Of a stretch of 64,000 bases of DNA, positions 3,774 through 33,773 are shown piece after piece. The translations under genes were made by a program, and so were the position numbers. The notes beneath the pieces were generated by a model. It had not been told where the DNA came from. It searched no databases and saw only the letters and a list, made by a program, of their open reading frames with translations. How positions within the stretch are numbered: the first letter of the stretch is position 1; each line of letters starts with the position of its first letter. The DNA is from Phytophthora quininea (lineage: Eukaryota; Oomycota; Peronosporomycetes; Peronosporales; Peronosporaceae), in NCBI GenBank assembly GCA_011947345.1, contig JAAVTG010000562.1:62001-126000 (forward strand), written 5' to 3'.

Positions 3774-3775
3774 GC

Positions 3776-11153: not shown

Positions 11154-11155
11154 AC

Positions 11156-11255: not shown

Positions 11256-11468
11256 ATGGCGAAAGGATCGAATGCGGTACCAGCGACCCCATCGACGGCC
11301 GGTGGAGTATCCACCGAGCATTCATCCGGTGATACGGCGCGTGTTGCGACTATCACCGAGCGCTCGGTGAGCTTTGAGGACTCGGAGGGGATCTGGACGC
11401 CAACGACAATGACCATGAGGATGTGGATAACGATGTTTACGAGGAGAAGGCCGCCGTGGCCGAAGTGA
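11256..11468 (+). CDS. Gypsy-B gag, N-terminus
   Basis: Starts at the ATG at 11256, the first suitable start after the primer site. About 45 codons of Ser/Thr/Ala-rich sequence look coding up to a GGGG at about 11386-11389, after which an acidic Asp/Asn stretch continues in the next frame. The last ~27 codons of this ORF are out of frame. No domain is recognised. Confidence 0.55.
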   Translation: MAKGSNAVPATPSTAGGVSTEHSSGDTARVATITERSVSFEDSEGIWTPTTMTMRMWITMFTRRRPPWPK

Positions 11469-15043: not shown

Positions 15044-15849
15044 TGCTGACAGGCAAAACTACTGACGGACATGGATGCCCCAACGAGGTTTCGGGTAGAA
15101 GCGTAGCCCAGCTGGAACAAACCTTCGTCTCGGTCTTTCGAGGGTTGACAACGGAGGGAAATGCTACCCTGTCAGGGAAGAACGAGAACTCGTTCGAACA
15201 CCCGGCAAATGAGATCGGGTTGGAAGACTACGCTCACGAACTAGCGTTCCTTCCGGACCTCACCGAGGAGTCAACGACCGTGCTCGACTACGCAGGAGCG
15301 AACGTCGTTAACCCCGACCTGACAGCAGCCCAACAAAAACGGTTGGTCCAAGTGCTAAAGAAGCACGAGGGAATAATGATTAGCAGTGGGAACGCGCTGC
15401 CCCCGCCTGCCTATGGGGTGGTTTGTGATATCGACGTCCAAGGGCACGCTCCAATCAAGCAGAGAGCTCGACGAATACCGCTCAGACATCTCCGACAACT
15501 CTATGAGCTTCTGAAGGGACTCTTGAAGGCAGGCCTAATCGCATTCTCGGACAGTCCATGGGCCTCGCCGATTGTGATCGTACTGAAAAAGAACGGTCAA
15601 GATATTCGACTGTGCATCGATTACAAGATGGTAAATGCTGTAACGGCTATCATGGAGTACGCCATGCCTTTGGTGGACGACCTGCTGACGGATTTGGAGT
15701 GTTACCTTTGGTTTTGCTCGCTGGATGCTGCCAGCGGCTTCTGGGCCATAATGATGACTCTGAGAGCTCGGAAGGTCTCGGCGTTTGTTTGTGCCCTGGG
15801 TCATTTTGAATGGCTGCGAATGCCGTTCGGTCTAAAAACGCGCCGATGA
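15040..15849 (+). CDS. Gypsy-B pol, RT fingers and first palm part
   Basis: About 270 codons covering the N-terminal RT: W-A-S-P-I-V-I-V-L-K-K, R-L-C-I-D-Y-K, the first catalytic Asp in S-L-D-A-A-S-G-F-W, and M-P-F-G-L-K. It copies RNA to DNA. The frame stops just after the last motif. One extra A in the AAAAA run at about 15834-15838 continues it as N-A-P-M-I-Y-Q. Confidence 0.85.
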   Translation: MMLTGKTTDGHGCPNEVSGRSVAQLEQTFVSVFRGLTTEGNATLSGKNENSFEHPANEIGLEDYAHELAFLPDLTEESTTVLDYAGANVVNPDLTAAQQKRLVQVLKKHEGIMISSGNALPPPAYGVVCDIDVQGHAPIKQRARRIPLRHLRQLYELLKGLLKAGLIAFSDSPWASPIVIVLKKNGQDIRLCIDYKMVNAVTAIMEYAMPLVDDLLTDLECYLWFCSLDAASGFWAIMMTLRARKVSAFVCALGHFEWLRMPFGLKTRR

Positions 15850-16598
15850 TTTACCAGAGAATGATCGACAACGCCTTGTGGGGGTTTGTTCAGCCTAGAG
15901 GCGGATGGAAACACTACGCAAATCTGATGCGTGAGGCTGAAGAACAAGCTAAACTATGGCATAAAGGGTCCGACGAGGTTTCCCTCGTGCCGCCGAATTC
16001 TGGAACTGCACCTCGAACCAAGTTTGAGGCGGACCGTGAAACCTCGGTGGAAGCGGACCCTGTTCTGCAACTGATCAACAGCCCCGTTGCCAACATGTTT
16101 GCCCATGGAGAGATCGACGAGAGCTTGTTAGTGCCAGTCTTCGATCGACGATCATTTGTGGATGACATTTGCTTTGGTGGCGAGACTTTCGAGTCCTGCC
16201 TGGCCACTCTAGATCAACTGCTGACACGATTCACGGAATGCCGAATTAGTGTGAGTTTCACTAAAAGCATCTTTGCACAGTCGAAGGTGGACTTCTTGTC
16301 GCACGAAGTCTCAGCTAGGGGCATACAAGCCGACGCCAAGAAGATGAAAGCCATTACCGAGCTTTCCTTCCCTCAGACCAAGAAAGGGATGCAGTCGTTT
16401 CTCGGAGCCTTGAACTACTACAGTAGGTTCATCCAAGACTTCGCTGTTTACGGTGCAGCACTGTACCAGCTGAAGGATGACGACTTTGGCCCCAGGGGTG
16501 ACCTCTCTGCGGCTCAACGAGCTTTCACGGCGCTCAAGCAAAGGTCGCGGAAGCCCCAATTCTCCGGCACTTTGACCGATCGAAGCCTGTGCACGTGA
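15850..16598 (+). CDS. Gypsy-B pol, RT palm and thumb
   Basis: Contains the catalytic box F-V-D-D at 16155-16166 (Phe in place of the usual Tyr), preceded by a ~90-residue insertion rich in Glu/Lys that is also present in Gypsy-A. The thumb block F-L-G-A-L-N-Y-Y-S-R-F-I follows. The open frame starts at 15810, but residues before about 15838 are out of frame. It leaves the true frame near 16540, where one A seems missing. Confidence 0.85.
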
Positions 16599-19534
16599 TG
16601 CTGTTTGCTAATGAGTGGGCTCTAAGCACGACATTGATGCAAGAACACGACGGAAAGCTGCATCCGGTCCGATTCGCGGGACGAGTTCTCAAAGACAGTG
16701 AAATGAATTACCACCCCGCGGAGAAAGAGGTGTTGGCTCTGTTGCTATTACTGAAGGTGTGCTACACACAGCTAGCCGGCCGAGTGATTCACGTCTACAC
16801 GAGATTTTCCACTCTTGAATGGGTGCACAAGTCCAAATCATTGTTCGGACGGACAACCCAGTTTGCAGTGATGTTGTCGCCATGGCATTTAAAGATCGAA
16901 CGAGTCAAAGAGCGAGATTGTACCTTCACACAGTTGCTGCAGTCAACAATCACTAACTTCATGGATCTCGAAGATACGTTAGCTCCGATAGCTCCACCGA
17001 GCAAAGGCTCACCGATGATTCGGATGGACCCGAATTTGCTCTATGCGAAGTTGCCACGTGACTACAGAGGATTCGTTGTGTCATTTGACGGCTCAGCAAA
17101 GACGGAAAAGTATGGTGGCTATGGAAGCTGCTCTTGGATTGTGTGGAAATTACCGGAGTGGTCTATAGCGATCGCTGCGAACGCTTACCTATCGTCGACA
17201 ACGGTAAACATCGCTGAGTACACCGGCATGAACAATGGCGTCATAGCTGCCATTGAACAAGGTGCCGAGGATTTAGTAATCGTTGGCGACTCTAGACTCG
17301 CGATCCAGCAATCCCTAGGGGTGATCGCCTGCCGGAAAGAAGCTTTAATGGCACAGCTCAATCGGCACAAAGATTTGGTGGCAAAGCTAAAAACGGTGAA
17401 ATACTTGCACGTAGTACGAGAATACAACGCAGCAGCTGATTCACTAGCCACCGAGTCGTTGGAGACGAAAACAAGCCGAGTGATACTGGGCGAAGCACGA
17501 AAAGCCGAATTGACGGGGTTAAATCGAATTCAAGAGATGTTATACGCCCCTGAGGAACTGGAGCACGCTGAGATCTCTGTGATGACACGACAACAAGCGA
17601 AGTCTAAGCGGAAACGCGTTAGGTTTGCCAACGAGGTTCCATCAGATACAGATCAAGCTGCAACGAAGCCTCAAGGGACCACAGTAGAACCTAACGAGAC
17701 TTCGGGACACGCCGAAGCCCTGGCGCGGGGAGAAGAAACAACTCCTCATGAACCCTCAGTGGAGGAACTGGACCCTGTAGAAATCCAAGCCGAACGTCGC
17801 CGGCGCATCAGCAAGGCTCAAGATGAAGAGCTACGATGGAAAAACCTCAAGCTGGCGCTAAGAGGGTCTACGGAAGACTTACCCTATAAAGAAGCACGAG
17901 ATGCTCTCAAATGGGCTGATAACTTTGTGCTTTCTGAAGATAGTCTGCTCTACTACCTTGGGTCGAAACCTCGGTCGAGCCGAAACCCGCGAGAAGAGAC
18001 TAAGCTCCGGCTGGTCGTGCCCACAACGATGATTCAGGAAGTACTGCACACTTGCCACGACACGTTGGAAGGGGGTCACCAGGGCGTCACTCGGACATAC
18101 CACCGAGTCAAAGCAGACTTCTATTGGATCGGACTCTTTGCTGATGTGGAGAAGCATGTCAAATCGTGCCCCGATTGCTGCACCAGCAAAAGCCGACCAC
18201 AACTGAAGGGAATGTCACCAGGAAACGTCCTGGCCGACAGACCATTCCAAATTGTCTCCATGGATTTCGTTATCCCGCTACCGAAAAGCCGAAGTGGGAA
18301 CACTGCCTTGCTGCTGTTCCAATGCTCATTCACTGGATTTGTCATCGCCAAGGCAATGTCTGACACTTCCGCGATAAAGGTAGCTCAAGCTTTCGAAGAA
18401 TGTATCTACCGACGTTTCGGCGCGCCGTCACTGATTCGGCACGACAGAGACCCTCGCTTTATGAGCGAAGTCTTCCAGGTGTTCGCAGAAATGCTGCAAT
18501 CACGCTCCAGAGCCACTCTGAGTTATCGTCCGCAAGCAAACGGGCAACAGGAACGCTCGGTGAAGTCAGTAATGACTTCAGTCCGAGTGTACGTGGAAGA
18601 CCCGTTGCAACGAGACTGGGATGAAATCGCAGAACGATTAGTGTTTGCTATTAACAACTCGCAAGATACGACAAGGAAGGAGACTCCGTTCTACCTCGTT
18701 CATGGCTGGGACGCACAGTCAACAATGAAAGCAATGACAACATCCCTCCAACGAGGTCACAGCAGACAGTCTGACGCTTTAGCGTGGCGACGAGAAGTCA
18801 ATCGGCAACAAGAAATCGCTTTTGTCATGGCCAAGGACTACCAAGCGACCGAAAAGAAGCGCAGAGCTGATGAGCACAACAAGACACTCAGTCGGCTGGA
18901 AAAAGCTTCCAATCCTAGCCAGAATGATAATGAAACCTCGGTGACCTCATCACGTAGTGGAAGCAGTCCAGACGATCGGCACTCTCGGCCACCGAGGTCT
19001 CCGTTCACAGAAGGGAGCCGGGTGTGGCTCTACATGGAACGGGTGAAGCCGGGTCTCGTCAAGAAGTTAGCGCATCGGTGGCACGGCCCTTTCCGCATCA
19101 AGCGCAAGGTCGAGGACTTTGCTTTCGAGTTAGAGCTCCCCGATCGAAGTGGATACCGATTCTATCCGGTGGTGCACATCTCTCGGCTCAAAGCAGTAAA
19201 CGAGTTCTCGGATCGACCGACGACTCGACTAGCCCTTGGGGTGACGGACGACACTCGCCTGGACTTTGACGAGGAATTGCTACCCGAAGATAGTTGGGAA
19301 CCTGACCAAGTAACTGGTGAATACGAGGTGGAAGCAATCCTCGGCGATCGAATGCCCTTGTCAACATCGACTGGACGCTCCGTGCGTGAGTTCCAAGTAA
19401 AGTGGGTCGGCTATGATGAACCCACGTGGGAACCAATGGCAAACCTGTCCTGCGGCGGACTCTTGTTTGATTATTTGCGCAGAAAGAAAAGCGACCAGCG
19501 TCTTCAGATGGTGCAGGTCGCTGATGAGGAATGA
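16589..19534 (+). CDS. Gypsy-B pol, RNase H, second RNase H, integrase, chromodomain
   Basis: 981 codons. Residues about 1-90 are the RT-linked RNase H (H-P-A-E-K-E-V-L-A-L-L). Residues about 160-300 are a second RNase H of archaeal-like type with ordered acids: S-F-D-G-S-A (~166), A-E-Y-T-G (~209), G-D-S-R-L-A (~232), A-A-D-S-L-A (~281). Then an acidic linker, the H2C2 module (~487-528) and the integrase core with Asp ~557 (M-D-F-V), Asp ~617 (R-H-D-R-D-P) and Glu ~653 (Q-Q-E-R). The end (~910-957) is a chromodomain (Y-E-V-E-A-I-L and V-K-W-V-G-Y). The chromodomain suggests targeting to modified histones. This segment has no breaks. Confidence 0.92.
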   Translation: MHVMLFANEWALSTTLMQEHDGKLHPVRFAGRVLKDSEMNYHPAEKEVLALLLLLKVCYTQLAGRVIHVYTRFSTLEWVHKSKSLFGRTTQFAVMLSPWHLKIERVKERDCTFTQLLQSTITNFMDLEDTLAPIAPPSKGSPMIRMDPNLLYAKLPRDYRGFVVSFDGSAKTEKYGGYGSCSWIVWKLPEWSIAIAANAYLSSTTVNIAEYTGMNNGVIAAIEQGAEDLVIVGDSRLAIQQSLGVIACRKEALMAQLNRHKDLVAKLKTVKYLHVVREYNAAADSLATESLETKTSRVILGEARKAELTGLNRIQEMLYAPEELEHAEISVMTRQQAKSKRKRVRFANEVPSDTDQAATKPQGTTVEPNETSGHAEALARGEETTPHEPSVEELDPVEIQAERRRRISKAQDEELRWKNLKLALRGSTEDLPYKEARDALKWADNFVLSEDSLLYYLGSKPRSSRNPREETKLRLVVPTTMIQEVLHTCHDTLEGGHQGVTRTYHRVKADFYWIGLFADVEKHVKSCPDCCTSKSRPQLKGMSPGNVLADRPFQIVSMDFVIPLPKSRSGNTALLLFQCSFTGFVIAKAMSDTSAIKVAQAFEECIYRRFGAPSLIRHDRDPRFMSEVFQVFAEMLQSRSRATLSYRPQANGQQERSVKSVMTSVRVYVEDPLQRDWDEIAERLVFAINNSQDTTRKETPFYLVHGWDAQSTMKAMTTSLQRGHSRQSDALAWRREVNRQQEIAFVMAKDYQATEKKRRADEHNKTLSRLEKASNPSQNDNETSVTSSRSGSSPDDRHSRPPRSPFTEGSRVWLYMERVKPGLVKKLAHRWHGPFRIKRKVEDFAFELELPDRSGYRFYPVVHISRLKAVNEFSDRPTTRLALGVTDDTRLDFDEELLPEDSWEPDQVTGEYEVEAILGDRMPLSTSTGRSVREFQVKWVGYDEPTWEPMANLSCGGLLFDYLRRKKSDQRLQMVQVADEE

Positions 19535-19811
19535 AACCTCGGTGGAATTACCGGCAGCAACCAGATCACGTAAGAGTTATCTGGCTATGTCTGTCGAGGA
19601 TTGAACTGACGACGGGACGGTGCAACCCGTCGCTACAGACGAAAAAAGCTATTGCACCAACAACCCTGCATGTTACATCGATGAACGTGAAAATGATTAC
19701 AAGGAATAAAGTTGCAAGAAAAGAAAACACTACGACACGACCAGCTCCGCTTAAAACCCTCGGTAGATGCACTATGAGCTGAAGCATGAAGAAACACACA
19801 CAAAACTCAGG
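19535..19811. other. Gap between pol and opposite-strand gene of Gypsy-B
   Basis: 277 bp between the converging ends of pol and the opposite-strand gene. It should hold both 3' UTRs. I see no clear polyadenylation signal and no other feature. Confidence 0.4.
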
Positions 19812-21233
19812 TCAACGAGCCTGCTCAGCCCCATTCACGTCAGCAGCAGCTTGCGCCAGCACAGCGAGTTGAGAACCATCTGCTGCTGGTGGCGAGTCGT
19901 TGGCTTCAGATTCTGAGTCCGACGCGAGGCGAGAACTCGGTGGGGTGACCATCTCGTCTCTCCAAGTGTCCTCAGCAATATCCTGTATTGCTGGGTCGAC
20001 TGAGATTACCGCATTCACCTTGGAAGCCGATTTGCGCCGAGGAATAAATGGCGTAACCTCCGATGCATTACACGGGAAGAACGTGGTGTTGAACGGATGA
20101 AGATGTGGAGCATTGACCCAGCCGCAACGCCAAGGCTCGCGCTGGTCGATACCGGCCACTTCAAGAGTCCAATCTGGGACAGCAGGGAACCACAGCAACT
20201 GCTCCACGGGGTAATGCAGCATCGACGGCTCGAAAATATATTCGGGAACAGGCTGGTGCCCATCAGGGCCATCAACGAACCAATACCACAGCTTCCTGGG
20301 GATCTGCAGGCGAAGCCGATCTGCTCTCTTACCTCGAGCCTTCGAATACTTTGCCCATTCGTCACGGGATGACAGGACAAGAGCAGCAAGGTCGTCCGAA
20401 TCAGGGTGACCGCTCTCGACCGAAACCTCGCCAGGAAGAGACTTCGAATCCAACTGCTGTTCCAGCATGCGGAAGTAATTCTCCACACATCGGTCGTGAA
20501 TCCAGTGCGAGCGTTCCCAGAGAGCGAAGCCGAGATCTGCCTTGGGTCCATATCCGCGCACAGCTCGCCACACATTTTTAATCTGGAGCATCATGTCCTT
20601 GGAACGGGTGGAAATATTGCTGTCAGGATTAAAGTCCGTTGTGTCGAACAGAGAAGCGTTCTCAGGAAGCCGTCGGCGGAGGATCTGCCACGGATGATTC
20701 CGATGAGTGTAGTTTGCGAATGCCTTAATGCCCTTAGCATCACACGGGACCATGGCGTCGCCCGAGACAGCATGAGGTGTCGTAACATTCAACATCCTCC
20801 ACCAACATTCCTGGGCCCCGGGCCTGTGGAACGTCATGTCAATAAACTTGTTGCTCCAGGTGGGGAGCGGCCCAGAAGGACGAACCAGTGGAGGAACGCC
20901 ACCGGTAACCAAAGGCAAGGCTGGAACAGGAGTCACCGAGCTCGAATTCCCCACAGGTCTCTGGCCAAAAGTGGCCACGACCTCGGTACGCGGTCCGAGC
21001 CGCCGCAGCCGAGTTGGGGGCACCGGAGGAGAGGTCGACGAGGGCTCGTTGGCGGAATCTGGCAGAGAATTGGCCACAGCCGGAACTGGGGTGGTCCAAC
21101 GAGGACTCCACTGCTGAGCCAGCCGAGGTATTTTGAGCACTGGGAACGGGATCGAGAATTCGTGCTGCATCAGTCTCCACGATATCCAAGTCTTCCTCGA
21201 ACATCTCGTCGATTTCCCGACGGCGCTGCACAT
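19812..21233 (-). CDS. Gypsy-B opposite-strand gene, C-terminal part
   Basis: Function unknown. The coding signal starts within about 20990-21230, where the frame changes by +1 from the upstream exon; I could not decide between an intron and an extra base. A Pro/Ser-rich stretch leads to a Trp-rich folded region. It shares, in the same order, motifs with the Gypsy-A opposite-strand gene: I-x-A-[FY]-x-N-x-T followed by P-W (~20690-20735), W-E-x-[ST]-H-W-[IV] (~20495-20525), I-F-E-(E)-P-[SA]-M (~20220-20250) and [IL]-D-x-R-[ED]-P-x-R (~20120-20145). No enzyme signature is seen. It converges on pol from the 3' LTR side. Confidence 0.7.
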   Translation of the reverse strand: MCSAVGKSTRCSRKTWISWRLMQHEFSIPFPVLKIPRLAQQWSPRWTTPVPAVANSLPDSANEPSSTSPPVPPTRLRRLGPRTEVVATFGQRPVGNSSSVTPVPALPLVTGGVPPLVRPSGPLPTWSNKFIDMTFHRPGAQECWWRMLNVTTPHAVSGDAMVPCDAKGIKAFANYTHRNHPWQILRRRLPENASLFDTTDFNPDSNISTRSKDMMLQIKNVWRAVRGYGPKADLGFALWERSHWIHDRCVENYFRMLEQQLDSKSLPGEVSVESGHPDSDDLAALVLSSRDEWAKYSKARGKRADRLRLQIPRKLWYWFVDGPDGHQPVPEYIFEPSMLHYPVEQLLWFPAVPDWTLEVAGIDQREPWRCGWVNAPHLHPFNTTFFPCNASEVTPFIPRRKSASKVNAVISVDPAIQDIAEDTWRDEMVTPPSSRLASDSESEANDSPPAADGSQLAVLAQAAADVNGAEQAR

Positions 21234-22262
21234 CGAGATCGTCGTGGGTGTCGGGCTCGTTGCCGACAGTCAGAGTAGACGAACTGCCGGCGGGATCACT
21301 TGGAGGCCCCACCGATCTTTTGTCGATTTCGCGGGAAGTCTTCGAGGCAGAAGAGGAAGACCGACGAGAACTCGTTGACGACTCAAGTTCCACGGGAACT
21401 GCTCCAGCGACCTCCACAGTGCCCAACGAAGACTCTGCCTGCGACGGTCCGGAAGAGAGGTCGATCACCACAGGGGCAGTCCTCGACATAGTGAATCCAT
21501 CGTCATCAATACCGAGATAATCGTCATCGTCTGCAGCCTCCTGCTGCTGATACAGCGAGCCCCTCTGAACTGCACGACGAGAGGCCCCTCGCGAAGGTGT
21601 GCCTCGGCGGGAAGAGCTTGGAGGGACTGGCGGTGACGGATGAGAGCTCGCTGGACTCAGTCGAGTGCTTGCATCAGCCGACGAGCTGGAAAGCGGAGTC
21701 CCTTGGACGTTAGATTCCGTAGGCGTCGACGGTAGCGAGTCATCTTGGCTGTCGTTAAACCACTGTGGTGGAGAACTCGTCGCAGGACGCGACACAGGTG
21801 AAGCAGGCCCTGGAGAAGCCTTGTGGGAAGCAGCCTTGCAGGACTTGTGACCAGGAGATCGAAGCCGGCGACGCTTTGGCCCTCTTTTCCATGCCTGTGG
21901 TTTGTGGAGACCCCGTCGGGATGAAGTCTCGACAGCTGCCGAGGTTTCAGGCTCCGAGTCGGAGTCACCAAGACCAGCCTCTGCCATTGACAGAGCCAAA
22001 CAACCAACAGATGACGAAACCTCGGTGGCTGCTGGAAGGGAGTCCCCACGAGCAGATGAGCTCGGAGGAGGGTCCTGGTCGAGTTGACGCAGCCGCTTGT
22101 GTGCGTTCTTGTGCTTCTTCTTGTGGACTGACTGGGCGGCATCCTCAGCTAGCTTGGACTTCTCAAACGCAGTCCGCGCTGTTGACTGTAGCGCCGAGAG
22201 GCGTGTAAACTCGGCGGAACTAAGTCCCAGCGTAGACCAGTCCAATTCCTCCGCTAGCAGAC
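20839..22262 (-). CDS. Gypsy-B opposite-strand gene, exon 2, middle part
   Basis: Follows a 60-nt intron. The first residues (L-L-A-E-E-L-D-W-S-T-L-G) line up with a block in the Gypsy-A gene with identical spacing of Asp, Leu, Trp, Leu and Gly. The rest is Ser/Pro/Arg/Asp-rich and probably disordered, with a basic Lys/Arg-rich patch (possible nuclear localisation signal) around 21840-21900. The useful frame ends before about 20990; the remaining codons to 20839 are likely out of frame. Confidence 0.65.
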
Positions 22263-22322
22263 CTTAAAACATTGACGAGGAGTCAGATTATGTTGGAGAC
22301 AAGGACAGCAACGAGGCCTTAC
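22263..22322 (-). other. Intron in Gypsy-B opposite-strand gene
   Basis: 60 nt on the minus strand, starting GTAAGG after G-A-A-G and ending TTTTAAG, with CTGAC as a possible branch site. Removal joins the two exons in frame at a Gly codon. The size fits the host introns seen at 55128-56791. It could be removed only from a minus-strand transcript, so it supports real transcription of that strand. Confidence 0.75.
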
Positions 22323-23268
22323 CTTCCATGACCTTGACGAGAGTGTCGGCGTCTAACTGCCGATCTTGGACGTGAGACCGAAGAATTGCATTGGCATGAG
22401 AGAGTTTAGAGACGCGCCGCTGGAGATCTTCAATGCGAAGCTCACGCTGACGATCCAACGCAGACCCTGGAGCCGACGACGCGGACAGCAAAGAATGCAG
22501 ACGGGCTTCGGTCTTGGAATTCTCGGCGATCTTCCCTTTGAAGACCTCACGCTCACGCCGGATCTGTCGCTCTTGTTCATGGATAGACTTGTCGCGCGCT
22601 TCAATCTGAAGCCTCAGCGAGTTCTCGGTGTCCGTCACGCGCGCCAACTTCTCGTCCATTACCTTCAGCTTTGAACCAAGTGAGGCGATGGTGTGTTCTT
22701 GGGAACGGAGCTGTCGCTTGAGATGCTCCACCTCGGCCGTCGCATGTGATGCAATCAGCCGCGCGTTCTCCTTCAGGCCGATCTCGGTGTTCAGTGAGCG
22801 TTGAACGGCGGCCACCCTCGCGCGCGCGGCCTCCGAGTCCGCCTTAAGGCGACCCACCAGGTTGTCGAGGTCAACCGGAGGAATGACCCCAGACACGGAC
22901 TGCGCACAGACTTCAGCGAGGTTTCCGGCGCGCTCCAGGGCAGCTTCAAAGGCTCGATCCCCGACGGCTGGAGGATGAATAGCTTGGCGCAACACAGTCT
23001 TGGTCACCTGCGCAAGCTTGGCATCCAAGGATACCGCGAAGCCATTCAACGACGACTCCACCGAGCTCTTGACAAGTTCAACGAGCGCCCCACGATGAAT
23101 CTGCGTCGGGTTAGCGGGAGCTGCACGAGCCGCCGCAGGCGCAGATGAGGTCACCGCGGCCATCGAACGGGTCCCTGGGCCAGAAGAAGCTGCACAGGAA
23201 CTGGATGGAGCTGACTGAGTAGTCGACGAGACCTCGGCCGCCTCGGCACGATCCTGCGAGGAAGACAT
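22323..23268 (-). CDS. Gypsy-B opposite-strand gene, exon 1 (coiled coil)
   Basis: Starts at the ATG at 23268 (Met-Ser-Ser-Ser-Gln), 155 bp from the 3' LTR; an ORF extension to 23343 lacks coding character. A Ser/Ala-rich start is followed by about 200 residues with strong heptad pattern (Leu/Ala with Glu, Arg, Lys), a clear coiled coil. It ends in L-D-A-D-T-L-V-K-V-M-E at the splice donor. The architecture (disordered start, coiled coil, D-x-L...W block, Trp-rich end) is the same as in Gypsy-A. Confidence 0.72.
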
Positions 23269-23410
23269 CGAGTCAGCCAAACCAGTCAAACGCCTACAGC
23301 TTCGAGCCACCCACCAACATCGCGATGCGAGGTGCAGAAGCAACGAGCAACCGTGTCAACGCGAGCGAAGGCAGATGTCCAGACGCTCGCCGATCGGGAG
23401 GTTCGCGTCG

Positions 23411-23423
23411 GGCCAGGGGCAGT
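23411..23423 (+). promoter_or_regulatory. Purine-rich tract before Gypsy-B 3' LTR
   Basis: GGCCAGGGGCAGT abuts the LTR, the place of the polypurine tract that primes plus-strand synthesis. It is short and interrupted by pyrimidines. Confidence 0.45.
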
Positions 23424-24494
23424 TGTGGTAAAGCGATTTGCCTGGGAAACAGGGACGAGCCGTGAGGCATCGTGATGCGTGGCGAGGATTCGCTCACGGT
23501 CATTCCCAACGGAGTCTTCCCTGATTGGCTGGATTTTTAAGTCTGGCGAGGTCTCAATGGTCAGTCGGCGGGAATCACTTTTGTGGATTGAACCATTATG
23601 CCCAACGGAAGGCGCTGTGATTGGCCATTCCTCAGAATGTTCGGTGACACGTCGACGTCACCTTTCCAACGGACAAAGATCCAGGCGACCCTTCCCAAGC
23701 CCCGGCGACGGTTGGGAGCCTCAGTGCCTGTTGGGAAAGCTCGTTGGCTACAGCTGGATCCTCGATGACTCTTGGGAGGGCTCGGTAGCAACGACCCGAC
23801 CTCTCCGAAACCTCGGTGGCCAGTCTGAGAGCTCGGCGACGCTTCGGGGACCTCGGCGGTGGGTTCAGCGAGGTCGCAGTTAGGAAACGGATCATATTTC
23901 ACTGCATATTTGTATGGAAAGTAGGATTTACATAAGCCCGAATGGGCACTACATATACAGAACAGAATTTCCCCTCAAGCACACAAGGGCCAAGTCCGGC
24001 AGCGGAATCGTCTTCGGTACGTTGCGTCTGGATCCGCCCGTTTGAGCGGGTTATGTCTGTCGGTGGGCACGTTTATCCGTGAGGACAGTGCTCGCCCCTC
24101 GGCCAAGCCAAGAGTTTGTGGCAAGGTTGAGTGTGTATAGCGTGACGGCTGAATTGCCAGCGCTTGTGTTCGGGGTCGAGTGTTCTCCCCGCTTCTCTAA
24201 AGGTCACCGCAGGCTGAGACCTCGGTGGACTCGCAGTCGGCCTTAATTGGCTTTGGACCCTTCTGCTGTTGGGCCAGCGAGGTTTGGCGCGCTAGCGAGC
24301 TCGTGCTAGTGGCGTTTGTTTACTTGGGAAGTTTGCGTGGACGGATCGCAAGACCAGTCAGTCCCGGTGCTAGGGCTGAATCTGGGTCTTCAGATTCGAG
24401 CCCCAACTCTCGTTGACCTTCCTGGTTGACGTATTGTTGTGGGTGGAGTCTATCCGTACTACCAACGAGTTTTCACGTGGAATCCTATACCACA
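23424..24494 (+). repeat. Gypsy-B 3' LTR
   Basis: 1071 bp, matching the 5' copy apart from about three changes (a T-run near 23663, G/A near 24282, T/C near 24398). Confidence 0.95.
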
Positions 24495-24498
24495 CGAT
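24495..24498. repeat. Target-site duplication of Gypsy-B, right copy
   Basis: CGAT right after the Gypsy-B 3' LTR; pairs with 10078-10081. Confidence 0.85.
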
Positions 24499-24823
24499 GG
24501 TAACGCCGCTCCAGCACCTGCCCGTGGACGTTGTCTGCGACTTGGATGTCGGCGACGCCAAGCCCGTTGCACAGCGTGCGAGGCAAGTGGCACCGCACCT
24601 GTTGGTCAAAGTCTATGACCTACTGAAGAAACTTCTTGAAACTGGGTTGATAGAATTCTCCGAGTCGCCCTGGGCGTCACCCATCGTGATCGTACTCAAG
24701 AAGAATGGGGTGGACATCAGGATGTGTATCGATTACCGTCTGGTCAACAGTTTCATCAAGCTGTCTAGCTACCCGCTACCCTTGATCGACGATTTGTTGA
24801 TCGGCTTCGAGGCAGCGATGTAG
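24499..24823 (+). CDS. Gypsy-A pol, RT N-terminal part
   Basis: Gypsy-A coding sequence resumes after Gypsy-B. Gly-Asn-Ala lines up with the same residues in Gypsy-B; then V-V-C-D-L-D-V, W-A-S-P-I-V-I-V-L-K-K and R-M-C-I-D-Y-R. One base seems extra near 24529 compared with Gypsy-B. The frame ends at a TAG (24821-24823) exactly where Gypsy-B has Trp (L-W-F-C-S-L-D), so a single TGG-to-TAG change is likely. The frame stays open beyond it. Confidence 0.8.
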
Positions 24824-24826
24824 TTC

Positions 24827-25123
24827 ATGTCCTTGGATATGGCGAGCGGCTTTTGGGCGATCTTGATGACAGAGAGAGCGAAGTTGATTTCAGCGTTCAT
24901 CTGTCCCTTTGGTCATTTCCAGTGGATACGCATGCCTTTCGGGTTGAAGAACGCCCCTTTGATTTACCAATGTGTGATCAACAATTGTTTGTGGGGTTTG
25001 TTCGATTATCTGCTGAAGAAGAAGTTCATGTGGATCCAGAAGTGTTGGACTTCCTGGGCTTGGATGGTAGGTCGAAGGATATGTCAGTTGTTGAGCCCGC
25101 GCTCAAGACCGTGCCAGCTTTGA
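24827..25123 (+). CDS. Gypsy-A pol, RT catalytic part A
   Basis: Same frame as the previous segment, after the TAG. It contains the first catalytic Asp (S-L-D-M-A-S-G-F-W) and M-P-F-G-L-K-N-A-P. It leaves the true frame at GGGG 24993-24996 (after N-N-C-L-W-G); the codons after that to 25123 are out of frame. Confidence 0.8.
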   Translation: MSLDMASGFWAILMTERAKLISAFICPFGHFQWIRMPFGLKNAPLIYQCVINNCLWGLFDYLLKKKFMWIQKCWTSWAWMVGRRICQLLSPRSRPCQL

Positions 25124-26478
25124 CTGAAGTCATGACAGTCTTCCAACGCAATATCCCGATGCCGAGTCATCTGGGTCCAGTACTGGGGCGTAGTTCTTAT
25201 ATTGACGATATCGCTCACGGAGCTCCGACATGGGACCGGTTGTGCGAGGACCTGGATGCGCTGCTGTACAGACTGCGGTACTGGCGGATCTCAGTTAGTC
25301 TGCCGAAGAGTGAGTTTGGTAAGCTGATCATCCCGTACCTTTCGCACGAGATCAGCGCTGAAGAAATTAGGGCTACGCCGAAGATCGCCAAGGGCGTCCA
25401 GGAGCTGCCCTTCCCGTCGACGCTGAAGGGCGTGCAGTCCTTCCTCGGAAGCCTGAACTATTACAATAAGTTCATCGAAGACTTGCCTGTTATAGCGGCA
25501 GTCCTGTACGAATTGAGTGATGAACAGGTACGTTCGGGGAGAAACCTCGCGCGTGCAAAGGAAGCATTCGAGTTGCTCAAGCGGAAGATTACTTCAACAC
25601 CGCTTCTAAGGCACCCAGATCGAACTCGTCAGTTTGTGGTCATACCCCACGCGAATCCTTGGGCGGCAAGTGCCGTCCTTGGACAGGAGTATGAAGGAAT
25701 AGTCCAACCTGTACGATTTACTGGCCGTGTGCTGAACGAGTTCGAAGTGAGGTACCACCTAGCGGAGAAAGAGGTGATCGCCATATTGCGCGTCCTAGAA
25801 CTGTTCAGACCGCTCATTCATGGCACAGGATTCCCCGTCGTGGTGTACACCCGCTATTCTGTGTTGAAGTGGCTGTTGGCTTCGAATACTGCTGATGGAC
25901 GTCACCTCAAATGGGGACTGGAATTGTCTAAGTGGTCTTTGGAACTCCGCCGAACGCAACATGATGAAGATGGGTTGGCCGCCATTTTAGGAGCGGGCAT
26001 CACTCCACGTGAGTCGTTGGATGAAGTTGCTGAGAACCTTGTCCCTGCCAAGGGCGTGTCAAGGCGCCGCCCCCATCAGTGTAGAGATGTTGGATATCAG
26101 TTTCAAGGGAGTGGTTCTGTCGTTCGATGGTGCGGCCAAGACCTCGACCAGACAGGGAGTTGCGGATGTATTCTATGGCAGCTCCCTGGATGGCGTGTTC
26201 TGATTGCGCATGGATTTATCCTGGAGGACGTCACGGTGAACGACGCTGAGTACAATGGACTGTTAAAGGGATTGACCCTAGCTGTTGAGCGCGGGGTCGA
26301 AGAATTGGTAGTGGTTGGCGATTCTAGGATTGTCATCCAACAAGCTCAAGGCCTGATCAACTGCAATCAACCTAACTTGCAACGTCGTCTAGCCGAGTAT
26401 GAAGTACTGAAACTGAAGTTCAAGAGGCTGGATTTGGTTCACGTCAAAGGGATTACAACCAAGCCGCTGATTACCTGA
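24997..26478 (+). CDS. Gypsy-A pol, RT palm/thumb, RNase H and second RNase H
   Basis: True coding from 24997. Catalytic box Y-I-D-D at 25198-25209, thumb block F-L-G-S-L-N-Y-Y-N-K-F-I near 25442, RT-linked RNase H (about 25640-25880, H-L-A-E-K-E-V). An archaeal-like second RNase H follows: D in S-F-D-G-A-A (~26121, read in the +1 frame of 26009-26203), E in A-E-Y-N-G (~26248), D in G-D-S-R-I (~26320) and D in A-A-D-Y-L (~26468, read in the next frame). The frame shifts near 26071 (CCCCC), near 26155 (GGG) and near 26450. Confidence 0.85.
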   Translation, partial: FVRLSAEEEVHVDPEVLDFLGLDGRSKDMSVVEPALKTVPALTEVMTVFQRNIPMPSHLGPVLGRSSYIDDIAHGAPTWDRLCEDLDALLYRLRYWRISVSLPKSEFGKLIIPYLSHEISAEEIRATPKIAKGVQELPFPSTLKGVQSFLGSLNYYNKFIEDLPVIAAVLYELSDEQVRSGRNLARAKEAFELLKRKITSTPLLRHPDRTRQFVVIPHANPWAASAVLGQEYEGIVQPVRFTGRVLNEFEVRYHLAEKEVIAILRVLELFRPLIHGTGFPVVVYTRYSVLKWLLASNTADGRHLKWGLELSKWSLELRRTQHDEDGLAAILGAGITPRESLDEVAENLVPAKGVSRRRPHQCRDVGYQFQGSGSVVRWCGQDLDQTGSCGCILWQLPGWRVLIAHGFILEDVTVNDAEYNGLLKGLTLAVERGVEELVVVGDSRIVIQQAQGLINCNQPNLQRRLAEYEVLKLKFKRLDLVHVKGITTKPLIT

Positions 26479-28406
26479 CGTCGAAGACGCTACTAGCTGG
26501 ACGGTCGGGTGAGATCACTGAGCTGGAAGAGCTTGCTCATTTGCAGGTAGTGTCGAAGTTGCCAGAGAAGTTGATGAAGCCAGCTGAAATCCCTGAATCT
26601 GACGCTCAAAGTGAGGCGCCCTTGGGTGGAGAAAATGTTGCCGCCCAAGAAACAGACCCCATGTCCAATGCTGCCAAGGTGATGGCTGCTGTGACCCGTG
26701 CTCGAGCTCGGGAAGAAGGAGAACGACCTACACCGAAAAGCCCACTTGAAGCCCAAGATGAGAGGTGGCGACGAATCAAGGCGCATCAGGACGGAGACGT
26801 CCAGATTGCGCAGATCAAGAAATTCTTGGCTGGGGACTTGGAAGATTTCTCCAAGGCCCAAGCCCGGAAGATCGCTAAAGGCGCCGATCAATACGTCTTG
26901 GACTCAAGGGATGTGCTCTATCGGCTAAGTGCTCCAACTCGTAATCGACCACGCGACAGAAACTTGGAACCAAGACTGGTAGTGCCGGAATCTCTTCGAA
27001 TTGATATCCTACACTATGCCCATGAAGATTTCCAGGGCGGCCATCAAGGTATCACACGCACGTACGAGAAACTCCGGTCTGAGTTCTTTTGGACGCGGAT
27101 GTACTCGGATGTCGAAAAGTTCGTCAAAGAGTGTGTGGACTGTGCGTCAGCCAAGGGGCGACCGCCGAACCCAGGTCCTTCGCCTGGTAACATCGAGCCG
27201 AGTCGGCCCTTCGAAGTCGTTTCAATGGATTTTGTCACTCACCTACCCAAGTCCGACCGCGGCAATACATTCTTGCTGCTGTTTCAGGACACCTTTTCCG
27301 GGTTCGTGATGTGCAAACCGATGAGTACGACCACCGCCCAAGACGTCGCCGAAGCATACGAAGAATGTGTGTTCAAGAGATTTGGCGCGTCTTCGATGAT
27401 CCGTCATGACCAGGACCCTCGCTTCATGAGCGAGGTTTTCACCAAGTTCCGTGAGCTCTTGGGCAGCAAGCAGAGGGCAACTCTTGCCTACCGCCCACAG
27501 GCCAATGGCCAACAAGAGCGCTCAGGACAGACAGTCATTCGGAGCATCCGAGCGTACGTCGCTGAAGCCGACCAAAGTGACTGGGACGACCACGCTGAAA
27601 GGCTGATGTTCGCGCTGAACACTTCCTTCGACGCGGTTCGCCTGGATACACCATTCTACTTGGTCCACGGATGGGACGCTCAAGGCACGCTTTCTGCTAT
27701 GCTTGGGCCGAAGCCCTCAGGTTTCTTCGAACTCAGCGCCTACGAATGGCGTCGTAAGATGCAGCGTGACTATAGCTACGCTAGGGCTTGTGCTGAAGAT
27801 TTGCAGAAGGAAGCCAAGGAACGACGCTCAAGAGGACAGACCCAAGCTTGGAACGAGTTGTCTGATCGCTTGAAAAGTGGTTTCAGAGAAGGTGACGCAG
27901 TCTGGCTGTACATACCTAAGGTCCTACCGGGACTGAGCCGAAAGCTTGCTCATCTGTGGCACGGGCCGTTCCGCATCGAAGAAATTCACGATGACTTCAG
28001 AGTCAAGTTGAAGGTTTCCGACACTGGTTACCGAGTGAATCCTTGGGTCCACATCAGCCGATTGAAACCCAGGGCGTTATTTCCTAAGCGCCCTACAGCG
28101 GAGATTTCTGTGAGTGACGAGGATGACTTTGATGCTGAACTGTTGCCTGAAGACAGCTGGGAACCCGATGCCCAAAACGACGAATATGAAGTCGAAGAAA
28201 TTTTGGACATGAGGTGGAAACGGCAAACGCGCAATTCCAAGCGTGTTCGCGAGTACAATGTCAAGTGGAAGGGTTACACCGAAACAGACTGGTTACCCGC
28301 TTCGCAGTTGAACTGTGGTGCTCTCCTGTATGAGTTTCATAAAGGAGCGAGGTCTAGAGCTCGCTTTGAAGCCATGCAAGCTGGGGATGATCACCCAAGA
28401 GAATAG
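26479..28406 (+). CDS. Gypsy-A pol, integrase and chromodomain
   Basis: More than 620 unbroken codons. Linker, H2C2 module (27013-27145), integrase core with Asp in M-D-F-V (~27226), Asp in R-H-D-Q-D-P (~27407) and Glu in Q-Q-E-R-S (~27512). C-terminal chromodomain at 28185-28300 (Y-E-V-E-E-I-L, V-K-W-K-G-Y) as in chromovirus-type Ty3/gypsy elements. It inserts the cDNA; the chromodomain probably steers it to heterochromatin. Ends at TAG 28404-28406. Confidence 0.92.
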
Positions 28407-28851
28407 CGTCTTCGACGAACGTCTTTTGAGCGCAGATCGACGGAAGTGTGAACCGACTGGTATTGTTTTGAAACTGACTTTGTAATTGTGGCCCATTGGG
28501 CTAAAAGGATGGTGAGCTTCTGTTGAAAGGAGGCTGTGAGAGTGGTGGCGATAACTTGAAGAGCTGTCGGTGAAGGCGGTGTGGAGTTGTTGAAATGTGC
28601 ATCGAAGGATGAGTGAGGTGTTCTTGAAATCGCGCTGTGCGCACACATCGATTGAGGTGTTAGTGGGTCGCCGCTGGACGCTGGAAACCCTTCGGTGCTA
28701 AGGCGAAGTTGCACAAGTGTTGGGACTGATGTCGAAGGCAACCGAGTAGCAGATGACATTTATTCTTGGTGTTAGAGCGACGCTACGATATGCAGTTGAA
28801 GCCGTGACTTCGAGGAAGTGCGCCCAAGAGCACGCACAGAAAATGTTGAGC
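28407..28851. other. Gap between pol and opposite-strand gene of Gypsy-A
   Basis: 445 bp with short ORFs on both strands that do not resemble anything and lack Gypsy-B counterparts. Probably the joint 3' UTR region of pol and the converging opposite-strand gene. Confidence 0.4.
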
Positions 28852-29131
28852 TCACAGTTGTTGCCCGGGAACGAAGTTCTTGCATCGGCGCGGAGACCCG
28901 ATCACCTTGAGGTTCTTGGGGGCACGCTCAAGGCGCTGTCGATCGCCCTCGAAAGTTGCACCTTGCACCCGCATTGGGTCGCGCCAGTCTAAGGCCAGGA
29001 GTTGCTTTCTCAGCGTGAACGGTAGCCCAGTTTCGGGGTCATCCACGCGAGGATCCGCCCAAATCCAGTGGCAACACTGGGCCGGGACCACCCACATGGC
29101 GGGTTCTTCGAAGATCGTTGAAGGGCACCCT
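28852..29131 (-). CDS. Gypsy-A opposite-strand gene, C-terminal end
   Basis: Frame open from about 29131 to the TGA at 28852. It contains the motifs I-F-E-E-P-A-M (~29095-29125) and L-D-W-R-D-P-M-R (~28975-28998) that are matched in the Gypsy-B gene, ending with P-R-R before the C-terminus in both. It is separated from the preceding part by a one-base shift, most simply a G lost from GGG at 29132-29134. Function unknown. Confidence 0.65.
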
Positions 29132-30019
29132 GGCGTCTTGAGTAGCTTCTTGGCGCGGTGCGCTGCTGGCGGATGAATGAGTCGTGGCGTATTTTGCGAT
29201 CCTCGTACAAGTCCTTGGATCGCCTGTCCAACCTCGCCTGTTCCTTGCTGACTGGACGCGGTGGAGACGCTGGCTTAGGCGGAGTCTTCTTGGACTTGAG
29301 TTTCTTGGGCGTGACCTTCTTGGGCGGAGCTTTGCTGCCTAAGTCGATGGTGACCCAGTGAGTCATCTCCCACCACGCCATAGAATTGACCTTCATAAAC
29401 TGGATGTACGTTCGAATGGCGTTCTGGACCTTCGACGGCAAAGGTGACACATCGTGGAAGTAGAAGATCGTTGTCCGATCCTCAAACATCTTCGTCCAAG
29501 GTTCTTTGGCGGCCTTGCTAGTGAGATTCTCGTAGGCGTCGATATCCCAACGGCCCACCCACTGAAAGATGTGTGACTTGAGCGGCCGATACGCGGGGAA
29601 GCCCGGTGTCTGACCAGTCTTGTCGCCGTAGAAGACCATGCTGGCACCGTAGTAGCGGAAGGATGACGTGGTCTCTGGATTAACGTCTTCAATCAGCGCG
29701 AGTTGGGCGATTGTCAGATCCTTGAACGGGATCCGAGCAAGTCGCGAAGGAATCTTCCGCGGAGTCGCTTCCCCTTCGTTTAGGCCTTCGTCGGACTTAC
29801 GCTTCTTAGACGGCGGGGTCTTCGAGTGCTCACGACGATGGCGCTTCGACCCCGGGCTCTTGGATCGACTTTTCAAAGGCTTGCGATCCGAGTCCTCAGA
29901 GTCATCGGACGACTCCGAGCGTAGAGGTGTCGCGACATCTTCGCTGACGAGCTTCTCCTTGTCGTAGTCGTTGTCGTCCTGGTCGTCCGTGCGCTCTTGA
30001 GCGTCCTCGTAGTCCGAGT
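29010..30019 (-). CDS. Gypsy-A opposite-strand gene, Trp-rich domain
   Basis: The frame opens near 30019 with an acidic Asp/Glu stretch, then a Lys/Arg/Ser-rich basic region, then a folded-looking part with I-D-A-Y-E-N-L-T...P-W (~29497-29553) and W-E-M-T-H-W-V (~29345-29370). A Lys-Pro-rich linker (P-K-K repeats) follows. The codons from about 29130 to 29010 are probably out of frame. The upstream frame is joined if one base is added to the CCCC at 30020-30023. Homologous by ordered motifs to 19812-21233. Confidence 0.68.
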
Positions 30020-32104
30020 CCCCTTGTCATCACTATCGTTGGAACTCAGTTCCAAGACCTCGTATGAGTCGTCCGCTAAGGAATCCAAGCTAGGCCATTG
30101 CGGGGGCCGTTCACCACGCTGGCGGAAGCCTTCGAGCATACGGTCCGCTTCTAAGAATAGCGACTCCGGGACATGGCGAGTCCACGGTGTCTCATCCAGC
30201 ATGCCGTGGAACATGGCACTGCACAGCATCCTCTTGATGTCTACGTTGTAGAACAGCGTGTGCGCCGGCTCGTCCGTTGCCAGCTTGAGTAGAGCGTCGT
30301 CGAAGTCAAATCCTGCGATCAGCAGCGCTTGGATGTCACGCCGAAGGTCCTTGAACACGTATGGCCCAGTGATAGCCCTGCAAGCTTCAGTCAAGGTGCG
30401 CTTCGGCGGGCACGAGACGTCCAGACCACGCTGTGGGACTGGGGTATGATTGCTTGGACGAGAACTGATGGCTTCATCGAAGACCGTATCCAAAGACCGC
30501 GCCGCCCGAGACTTTCCGTTGCGAGGCTTGTCGAGTGCCGCCAAAGGATCTTGGACTGGCAGGTTCTTGGATGTGGTGTCGAAGAGACCCTCCGTCAAGT
30601 CGTCCTCGCCCTTTGACTCCTCGTCGACCGTGTCCAAGGATGCAGGCCGGGTGTACTCTGGTGGGCGGGACTTGTCGTCAGGCGTGATCACGGAGATGAA
30701 GGTGCCGGCCTTGCTACCTGGCATGGTCTGGTCGGCAAAGTGCTGAAACAGACGCCCAAGACGAACCCAATTGCCTTGGATCTCGGCGTGCTCTTGAAGG
30801 AAAGCCATCAGCGCGTCCGGGTTGAACGACTTTTCCTTCAGCTCGCGCTGGAGGCTCTTGATGTGGTCCACCGCCGCGGTTAATTGCTGGCTTGTTTCTT
30901 CAGCGTGCGCTGTGTAGTGAGAGACCTCCTTCTGGAACGAAGCTTCGGCGTCCAAGAAGTCCTCTTTCAGCCGACGTTCCCGGGCCTCGCCTTCGGCGGC
31001 AACCCGCGAGATCCGGTGCTGCCAGTAAGTCTCCATGGCCGTCCACTCGCGACGCATGGCTTCATTCTCGGACTGCAAGTCCAAACGTTCGTGAAGTGCC
31101 CACTCGTCATGGTCTTCGTCGTCCAAGGCCGCCTTCAACTGACGATGCTTGGACAGTAAGCGCCTGATGATCGACATCGTGTTGAAAGTGCGCGCAGCAA
31201 AGTTCTCCTCGCGGAAGTGCATCAGGAGGGGTGCAAACTCCCGACGCATCGCGGTAGAATTCAGCACGGTCTCCAGTTGGCTGTACGTCAGCGGTCCTTG
31301 GGGCCGAATCGTCAGCAGGTGGTCTTGGATGTTAGTTCCAAGGATCTCTTGCAAGTCTGCGACGTCTTCGTCCGAGAGATCCTCGAACCCGAGCATGGCC
31401 TGGAGACCGCCGAACCCTTCCTGGATAATGGCGTCCCCACGGAGGGCGTCCAACGTCGCAGGAACCCCGACGAAACGAAGAGTTCCGTCGAACCCATACT
31501 CTGGCGGCCGCGTCCAGGAAGCTGGGGCCACACCCGCAGGAACAGCAGGCGCGCCGGACACAGGGATGAGCCGCGAGAGGGAGCGCTCGACGTACTCTGC
31601 GCCGTTGACCCAGGTGCTGGGGCCGCGAGGAGTCGCCAGGGTACTGCCCGAAGATATGGGCAAGGGGTACCCACATTTTGGGTACTCTCCCTTCCCCTGC
31701 GCGTCCCCACGCCCGGCAGTAGGCTGCGCGTCCTCCGCGTCCTCCTCTTCCTCCTCTTGGTCTTCCTCGGCCTCTTCCTCCTCCTCTTGGTCGTCCTCGT
31801 CGTCGTCCGCACCCTTGGAGACGTCGTGGTCGTCCAGCGAGGCGTTGTCGACCTTAGGTGGAGTGCGCTCCGTCGTTGCCTGGTCGGTGGTGGCCCCCGT
31901 TTGGCCCTCGCTTGAAAGGCTGCCCATGATGCGCGCTACTTGGGCGATTTCTGAATGATCGCCTAAGAAGGAATTGTTGAGCGACGTTTTGATGTTCTTT
32001 GACCCGACAGTTGGAGTTGGTCCAGATGAGAAAGGACGCAGAAAGCTCCCGATCTGAGGAAGTCGCATGAAAGTGCGCTGAGTGTTGTTGATGGATCCTG
32101 ACAT
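29873..32104 (-). CDS. Gypsy-A opposite-strand gene, N-terminal and coiled-coil part
   Basis: I place the start at the ATG at 32104 (Met-Ser-Gly-Ser-Ile); the ORF opens earlier (32254) but inside the LTR. In order: Ser/Thr-rich start, a long Asp/Glu run (~31735-31820), a compact region with two conserved-looking L-x-D blocks, a coiled coil (~30900-31150), the F-N-P-D-A-L...W-V-R-L-G block (~30740-30830) matched in Gypsy-B, and a C-terminal domain ending in D-S-Y-E-V-L-E-L. The last ~48 codons (Arg/Thr-rich) are out of frame. It is the largest unassigned protein in the window. Confidence 0.72.
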   Translation of the reverse strand: MSGSINNTQRTFMRLPQIGSFLRPFSSGPTPTVGSKNIKTSLNNSFLGDHSEIAQVARIMGSLSSEGQTGATTDQATTERTPPKVDNASLDDHDVSKGADDDEDDQEEEEEAEEDQEEEEEDAEDAQPTAGRGDAQGKGEYPKCGYPLPISSGSTLATPRGPSTWVNGAEYVERSLSRLIPVSGAPAVPAGVAPASWTRPPEYGFDGTLRFVGVPATLDALRGDAIIQEGFGGLQAMLGFEDLSDEDVADLQEILGTNIQDHLLTIRPQGPLTYSQLETVLNSTAMRREFAPLLMHFREENFAARTFNTMSIIRRLLSKHRQLKAALDDEDHDEWALHERLDLQSENEAMRREWTAMETYWQHRISRVAAEGEARERRLKEDFLDAEASFQKEVSHYTAHAEETSQQLTAAVDHIKSLQRELKEKSFNPDALMAFLQEHAEIQGNWVRLGRLFQHFADQTMPGSKAGTFISVITPDDKSRPPEYTRPASLDTVDEESKGEDDLTEGLFDTTSKNLPVQDPLAALDKPRNGKSRAARSLDTVFDEAISSRPSNHTPVPQRGLDVSCPPKRTLTEACRAITGPYVFKDLRRDIQALLIAGFDFDDALLKLATDEPAHTLFYNVDIKRMLCSAMFHGMLDETPWTRHVPESLFLEADRMLEGFRQRGERPPQWPSLDSLADDSYEVLELSSNDSDDKGTRTTRTLKSARTTRTTTTTTRRSSSAKMSRHLYARSRPMTLRTRIASL

Positions 32105-32147
32105 GGTTGCCGCCTTGGAAGTAAATTCCGCTGTGGCCAGCCATGAC

Positions 32148-32160
32148 CGGAAGGGGCGGT
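32148..32160 (+). promoter_or_regulatory. Purine-rich tract before Gypsy-A 3' LTR
   Basis: CCGGAAGGGGCGGT next to the LTR start is the likely polypurine tract. Confidence 0.5.
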
Positions 32161-33773
32161 TGTGACGATGTGAATTGTGTTTTTCTATGGATCGCGCTGT
32201 GGAGAGTTTACATATGGAGTTTATTATGGAGCTAGTGTTGGATATTACGTTCAAGAGATGAAGAGATGTGCGATAAAACGTGTCGCTTGGGAGAAGGCGG
32301 GGTGTGCTGTCTTACCAAGGATGGGCCCTCAAGACCAGGAAGTGCGCCCAAGAAAATGTGTTCTTGAAAGGCACACCCAAGAAATGGCGTGTCCTTGAAA
32401 TGCACGTTGAAGGGATCTCCGCTCTTGGAATGTACGCCCAAGGGCACATTGCTTTGAGCGTGAGTGCACGTTACGTCCTAGTCACCCCTCGTCCTTAAAC
32501 GGGTCGCCAAGAACCAAGGTATAAATTGCCACAGTGAAAGGTATTCCTGTGTGCAACCCGTCTCGCCTTGGCTAACCTCACGATGTGTGAGGCAAGGACC
32601 TGTAAATCCCCAAGCTGCCCAAGTGACCCAAGAAGCACGGCTGCCGCCCAAGACCCAAGAAGTTCTTGGATGAACATTCCAAGGGTATATTTCTTGGGCG
32701 GCCATTTCTTCGATGGAGATTCTCTTGGATGGAGATTTCTTCGATGGAGATTCTCTCTTGGACGTGGATTCTGGCACTTAGCGAGAATTCGCATTCACCA
32801 TGGACCCAGTGGTTTGTACCCAGAATGTTTACGCCACAGATGATTTGAAGAGCGACGAACCCACGATAAGTGGCCGTCATCAAGTCAAGCATACTAAGAT
32901 CAAGACTAATTCGTATCCTAATGACTGCACCCAAGATCTGCGGAAGAGCTGCAGATCTACTAGCTATAAGAGATATCAATCAGAGAGTTCTTTTGCCCTG
33001 TACTGCACAAGCGCCAGTCGGTGCTCTTTGCGTGTTAGTGCTAGGTGACCTGCTGCTCCCCACCTGTTTGTTAAGTCCAATTGGGAGGGAGTCTAGGCGC
33101 CCCGACCATTTCGTTTACTAGTTGGGCGTCTGTCTTGCAGGCCAACCCATTTCATATTAAAACTACGCTCAAGCGGCTGGATAGCAGTCGCCGCTTGAGT
33201 TTGCTTTGAGACTGCGTCTTACAACGTTCTGTATTGGGATTTGTATTGACTGATCTGTGTGTTCCTTCGATTGAAGGTGGTGCGCGTTCGCTGAACCAAG
33301 TCCAAGACTTTCCAGGTGTCTTGGGCGTTGGATTGAACCTGGTGTGAGACCCCCGACCAAGGGTCTATAAGAATAAGTGTCGGCTGTATATTTGCATAAG
33401 GATCTCTCTGTATATTGATTATCTGTGGTTGCTAGTTCTTCTTGAACTTGCAGTCCAAGAACCCCGTCTCTTCAACTGCCGCCCAAGGAAAGTGGGCTGC
33501 AGGGGAACGAATTGTGGGCAAACTAATCCATCTAACACTCTTTTGTGTCTTTGACTGTGAAAGGCCATCCGGTAGATTAAACGCGGAATCCAAGGGTCGA
33601 ACCTATAGGGATTCACGAGGTGCACACGCCAATCCTTCGACGGCAGTTCCAAGAACCGCCGCTGAAGGAGTTCACAACTGATCTCGGTTCACCAAGATCC
33701 TGGCCACGTTGCCACAGCCCGCGCTGTGCAACAACCACCCCTGGACGGAAAACATCACCAGAGTTCCGCCACA
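32161..33773 (+). repeat. Gypsy-A 3' LTR
   Basis: Second copy of the 1613-bp LTR. Differences from the 5' copy include one G fewer near 32303 and one C more near 33100. The opposite-strand gene of Gypsy-A starts 57 bp outside it, so its promoter, if it has its own, would lie in or next to this LTR. Confidence 0.95.

Follow-up and report, generated by a model that had tools for sequence, protein, structure and literature searches.

The window analysed here, the whole of a 64,000-nucleotide (nt) stretch of Phytophthora quininea DNA (contig JAAVTG010000562.1, here C552, positions 62001-126000, within an 87.2-Mb genome), contains two long terminal repeat (LTR) retrotransposons, A and B, each with a long gene on the minus strand, lying behind pol and ahead of the 3′ LTR (Table 1). 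A and B are nested Ty3/Gypsy elements whose pol domains show the published architecture of Chronos. The sequence AGTAG lies on both flanks of A and CGAT on both flanks of B (seen by eye), and these flanking repeats indicate that B jumped into A. A Pfam scan finds a dual RNase H (RT_RNaseH and RVT_3) in the pol of each and a chromodomain (PF00385) above cut-off after the integrase in both, a combination that is the mark of the Chronos group of oomycete Gypsy elements (PMC5348765; statements on published systems, here and below, refer to parts of the cited papers).

The antisense gene extends over 28852-32104 in A and 19812-23268 in B, exactly where an earlier reading of the same letters (the original prediction) had placed it, and in both elements an antisense frame is the longest one open in the interval from pol to the 3′ LTR: 761 amino acids (aa) in A and 485 aa in B, against maxima of 407 and 350 aa in 300 dinucleotide shuffles. 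The start codon is 57 nt from the edge of the 3′ LTR in A (edge at 32161) and about 149 nt from it in B (edge at 23417). Each gene in the window is made of three open stretches, and neither copy is a single open frame (two breaks in A; one break and an intron in B). Both window copies are broken, and the breaks in A (near 30020 and near 29150) and in B (near 21090) each amount to a single base by which the copy departs from its sisters in the genome; a relative in family A, L038, is a single open frame of 963 aa. In B, the stop that separates exon 1 from exon 2 was considered as a further lesion; this reading was rejected, because a 60-nt intron accounts for the stop.

Table 1. Features of the nested elements A and B and of their antisense genes (window coordinates; a dot marks features given without strand).
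Feature	Coordinates	Strand	Basis or remark
Element A, with B nested inside	2161..33773	.	LTRs 2161-3773 and 32161-33773, 99.7% identical
Element B, lying within pol of A	10075..24494	.	LTR matches 10075-11153 and 23417-24494, 99.5% identical
pol of B, 3′ part	16589..19534	+	RNase H, second RNase H, H2C2, integrase, chromodomain
B antisense gene, final open stretch, ending at the stop	19812..21269	-	
B, conserved C-terminal Trp-rich domain, 280 aa	20010..20849	-	
B antisense gene, exon 2, open until frame break	20839..22262	-	
B, phase-1 GT-AG intron, 60 nt	22263..22322	-	Position shared by B relatives
B antisense gene, exon 1, with disordered start and coiled coil	22323..23268	-	
3′ LTR of B	23417..24494	.	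LTR match; antisense promoter presumed here
pol of A, 3′ part, two open stretches	24853..28406	+	RNase H, second RNase H (RVT_3), H2C2, integrase, chromodomain
A antisense gene, open stretch 3, ending at the stop	28852..29274	-	Open frame
A antisense gene, open stretch 2, in a frame other than that of stretch 1	29010..30026	-	Open frame
A, conserved C-terminal Trp-rich domain, first part	29160..29747	-	Profile alignment
A antisense gene, open stretch 1, beginning at ATG	29873..32104	-	Open frame
3′ LTR of A	32161..33773	.	LTR match; antisense promoter presumed here

Searching the genome with four pieces of the antisense proteins gave 66, 45, 26 and 39 matches, many of them 30-40% identical, and five lineage sets, A to E, were built from these matches together with stretches behind other pol loci. 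The profiles cover the C-terminal domain (about 250 residues) in 15 sequences whose frames are open as they stand; L037, one piece of L050 and the C753 pieces were left out, and the B profile was cut to its conserved part after weak untrimmed values had been seen (B against C+D 0.015, B against E 0.0022; a first untrimmed test of A against B gave an E-value of 6.5e-4, with 0 of 60 shuffles as good). Profile-profile comparison places A against E at 5.1e-24, A against C+D at 1.7e-6 and E against C+D at 0.0024. With B trimmed, A+E against B reaches 4.4e-6 (probability 87) and A against B alone a moderate 4.2e-4 (probability 34), in agreement with the predicted homology of the two genes; A+E against C+D gives 3e-7, A+C+D+E against B 6e-6, A+E against B+C+D 1.1e-7 and C+D against B 0.0069. 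For every pair, 40 column shuffles all stayed below the observed score, and reversed profiles and ten decoy proteins returned E-values of 0.32-0.9. Landmarks common to the lineages are PW, [AF]xWE-x-x-H, an R-x-x-R run, EP or DP, and D-x-x-[DE]-P-x-R. The similarity between A and B is significant, and the comparisons show that the antisense proteins of A, B and three further lineages, which serve as a bridge between the two, are homologous. A single recent capture of the gene is ruled out by its presence in five lineages.

The protein has a disordered start, a coiled coil at least in B, basic patches and a Trp-rich C-terminal domain. Of the sequence matches reported originally between A and B, W-E-x-[ST]-H-W, [LI]-D-x-x-[DE]-P-x-R and the EP motif, all in the Trp-rich part, recur in relatives. 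The block of identically spaced D, L, W, L and G is present in both window copies (in B only with the intron removed) and is not kept within their relatives: by eye, W and G vary among those of B, and D, the first L and G among those of A. This variation within each gene's own relatives rules the block out as a signature, and its match between A and B may be coincidence. The coiled coil had been claimed for both proteins and stands for B, whose heptad periodicity was equalled in 0 of 500 shuffles; support is weak in lineage E, with 18 of 500 shuffles as good, and in lineage C, with 31 of 500, and the claim is not supported for A, as described below.

Phase-1 introns on the antisense strand, identified from their sequence in lineages B and C, are the new finding of this study. 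The intron of B splits a Gly codon after its first base and is present at 60 nt in four B copies; seven loci of the related group B′ have an intron of 70 nt placed identically in codon and phase, and in the B′′ relative C204 it is 71 nt long. In a second B′′ copy, C312 (L050; minus strand, near 1104), the acceptor AG is lost (seen by eye), a loss that a decaying copy would be expected to show. Behind its coiled coil, lineage C carries a phase-1 intron of 69-70 nt (C266, C474, C753) or 73 nt (C858), with a TACTAAC or TACTAAT box. Taken together, the introns of B and C are 60, 69, 70, 71 or 73 nt long, all GT-AG and all phase 1, and their positions have been kept while letters and lengths changed (letters are 52-63% identical between sub-lineages in a gapped alignment, a figure that has no chance baseline). 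Because these lengths leave remainders of 0, 1 and 2 on division by three, only splicing holds the exons in register, and the retention of the introns in place predicts a spliced antisense mRNA. The introns are backwards in the sense RNA, the element's copying route, which would explain why they persist.

With all 223 antisense and 187 pol rows clustered, an antisense-gene cluster is found convergent within 4 kb in 65 of the 69 listed related pol clusters; a convergent pol accompanies 65 of the 98 antisense clusters, and none of the 98 has a listed same-strand pol in that place. The pol searches scored the best 71 of 942 and the best 47 of 1,149 candidates, which biases the pol set towards elements like A and B; an earlier count, made with a partial pol list and without the C lineage, had given 54 of 75 antisense clusters. 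Among the 33 antisense clusters with no listed pol nearby are C543:1195477-1198572, C129:100307-102103 and others on C67, C514 and C764. Since only part of the pol candidates were scored, these clusters are no sign of free-standing genes; they may be decayed copies, copies beside an unscored pol, or genes that do stand free.

Several observations bear on selection. First, a ratio of nonsynonymous to synonymous substitution rates (dN/dS) was obtained for 28 of 32 pairs, and 26 of these fall under 1 (22 no higher than 0.5 and four at 0.53-0.91; the two above 1 are both very close pairs), with dS saturated in many of the distant pairs. Second, differences are in excess at third codon positions in all eight pairs hand-picked from the 32 (p from 0.0047 to 8e-15). 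Third, in the 10 stretches checked every frame on the opposite strand is interrupted, by 2 to 33 stops. These patterns show that the antisense gene is under protein-level selection, as had been predicted; neutral dN/dS was not what we found. The protein's rate of change equals or somewhat exceeds that of gag: when A is compared with its sub-lineages, the integrase is 75-85% identical, gag 37-56% and the antisense protein, by piece, 27-53%.

The prediction that the protein belongs to no known family agrees with all the collections searched, namely Pfam (12 antisense frames), the PDB sequences, a collection of 5.8 billion proteins and viral contigs, the last three of which may hold few oomycetes. 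No PDB sequence matches at an E-value up to 5. With the 963-aa relative and the A+E domain alignment as queries, the protein collection gave 7,993 and 5,622 candidates, none at 0.001; the query's own genome is itself missing from that collection, so that its negative result speaks only weakly for absence. Eight pattern matches in viral contigs were not confirmed. TRP28 (PF04195) has no match in the Pfam scans of the 12 antisense frames, and a genome search with PF04195 was empty, as was its control. In the literature covered, from which subscription journals are mostly absent, there is neither an oomycete counterpart (PMC5348765, PMC10508981 and PMC3522703 included) nor an antisense open reading frame (ORF) with introns.

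We propose, with a probability of roughly 0.45, that this is an accessory gene of Chronos-type elements encoding a nuclear regulator that would act on its own element in the manner of HBZ of human T-cell leukaemia virus type 1 (HTLV-1). A promoter in or near the 3′ LTR would drive a spliced antisense mRNA; as the element copies through its sense RNA, in which the splice signals are backwards, the introns would survive transposition; and the protein, most likely entering the nucleus as a dimer, would act in trans on its own element and tune sense transcription. The promoter, nuclear and regulatory steps are those that we infer. The protein may work like HBZ or like gene23 of the plant element Grande, and we do not claim membership of either protein family.

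Several results weigh against this proposal. The antisense transcript is a prediction from the DNA. An oomycete initiator consensus matches 18 times against 9.6 expected, with no match in the LTRs of A or B. Heptad periodicity is not supported in A, where 71 of 500 shuffles were as good and the best segment is another one, nor in its relative L038 (440 of 500), and the basic patches, seen without a null model, differ between lineages. Family A has no intron at the place in question. The Pfam scan of the 12 antisense frames found no DNA-binding, bZIP or other domain above cut-off, and AlphaFold gave no confident structure for the B domain alone (predicted local distance difference test 32.7). 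Finally, an hmmsearch with the A+C+D+E model found two B′ copies at E-values no better than 0.011 and 0.013 and left the window B frame unlisted; B is thus the most distant member, and its link to A depends on the profile-profile comparison.

After the nuclear regulator we favour, in order, a silencing suppressor or an integration factor, and then a particle protein. A suppressor, doubtful on present evidence, would block host small-RNA or chromatin silencing of the element. The fast change of the antisense protein relative to integrase fits an arms race, and sense and antisense small RNAs occur over Gypsy elements in P. infestans (PMC3522703), but gag changes nearly as fast, and no RNA-binding or suppressor motif was found by Pfam in the 12 frames. 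It is equally improbable that the protein is an integration or nuclear-import factor, riding with the integrase complex and aiding nuclear entry or site choice. Such a role has been suggested by reviewers for the plant antisense ORFs (PMC7264820) and suits a gene found behind nearly all listed pol clusters; the integrase, however, already has a chromodomain, and a separate antisense mRNA would give the protein no tie to the particle. That it is a structural or scaffold partner of gag is a good deal less probable still: the coiled coil in B and the gag-like rate of change speak for it, whereas no gag-like domain is found by Pfam in the 12 frames, and particle proteins are usually made from the sense RNA along with gag. 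Least credible is the absence of any protein role, with the antisense RNA itself as regulator or the frames open by chance. A GC content of 57-58%, which makes open frames likelier, the broken state of the window copies and a dN/dS above 1 in two close pairs speak for it. Against it stand frame lengths beyond all 300 shuffles, the third-position excess, cross-lineage homology in one frame and the conserved introns, and chance frames as such are rejected.

Other features of the window were noted. Upstream of gag in A is a sense ORF of 769 aa (4422-6731) with no Pfam match, and its counterpart in B is shorter (11423-12169); these are possibly a further extra gene or an extension of gag. The gag-like ORF of A (7036-7986) has 106 related places in the genome, yet no Pfam gag match above cut-off. 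Beyond the nested elements is an inverted repeat of about 7.9 kb (36985-44836 and 46725-54567, 98.2% identical), either a large palindrome or an assembly effect, with a Copia-type element in each arm; that at 36980-41746 is bounded by end repeats of 196 nt and encodes gag_2, integrase and RVT_2 domains. Beside the repeats, a minus-strand frame (55327-56280) matches DNAJC11 in its C-terminal domain and beta-barrel, and is probably a host gene or a piece of one.

Comparison with known systems places the gene among several precedents. The Chronos elements of oomycetes (PMC5348765) have the same Ty3/Gypsy pol as A and B, with two RNase H domains and a chromodomain after the integrase; the scheme in that paper has two ORFs, and the word 'antisense' is absent from its text, so that the antisense gene is the addition made here. 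HBZ of HTLV-1 (PMC1459196, PMC3185765) is likewise antisense at the 3′ end of an LTR element, with an mRNA that starts in the 3′ LTR and is spliced (PMC1459196), where splicing is predicted here from intron signals and a start in the LTR is presumed, and with a coiled-coil-type dimer region in common with at least B; it differs in that our protein has no bZIP match and is several times longer, and in that HTLV-1 is an animal retrovirus. As the original prediction stated for some plant Tat-lineage elements, antisense ORFs occupy the same place in plant Retand, Grande and RIRE2, and also in the fungal element Boty of Botrytis (PMC11963269, PMC7264820), which puts one between pol and the 3′ LTR outside plants. 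The plant antisense genes behind pol are known without an assigned function (PMC7264820, PMC11963269), and the gene23 protein of Grande is nuclear and has its own antisense promoter (PMC7264820). Retand/Tat (TRP28, PF04195), Grande gene23 and RIRE2 belong to another host kingdom; here TRP28 has no match, a chromodomain is present and the introns are conserved, whereas antisense introns go unmentioned in the parts of PMC11963269 and PMC7264820 covered. In position the gene parallels the antisense genes of Retand and Grande with an unrelated protein.

A broader possibility, which we consider unlikely, is that a spliced antisense gene is standard in Chronos and that lineages with a second RNase H (plant Tat/Retand, Chronos, and retroviruses like HTLV) separately gained a gene for a 3′ antisense nuclear protein, the two gains being linked in one retrovirus-like lifestyle with a new protein family each time. 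If the family is widespread, some lineage-specific hypothetical proteins of oomycete genomes might, at a guess, be members. The introns would be a simple signature of transcription and splicing in stranded RNA. The same layout, an unrelated protein, conserved introns and a second RNase H convergent with that of plant Tat make the parallel testable in another kingdom.

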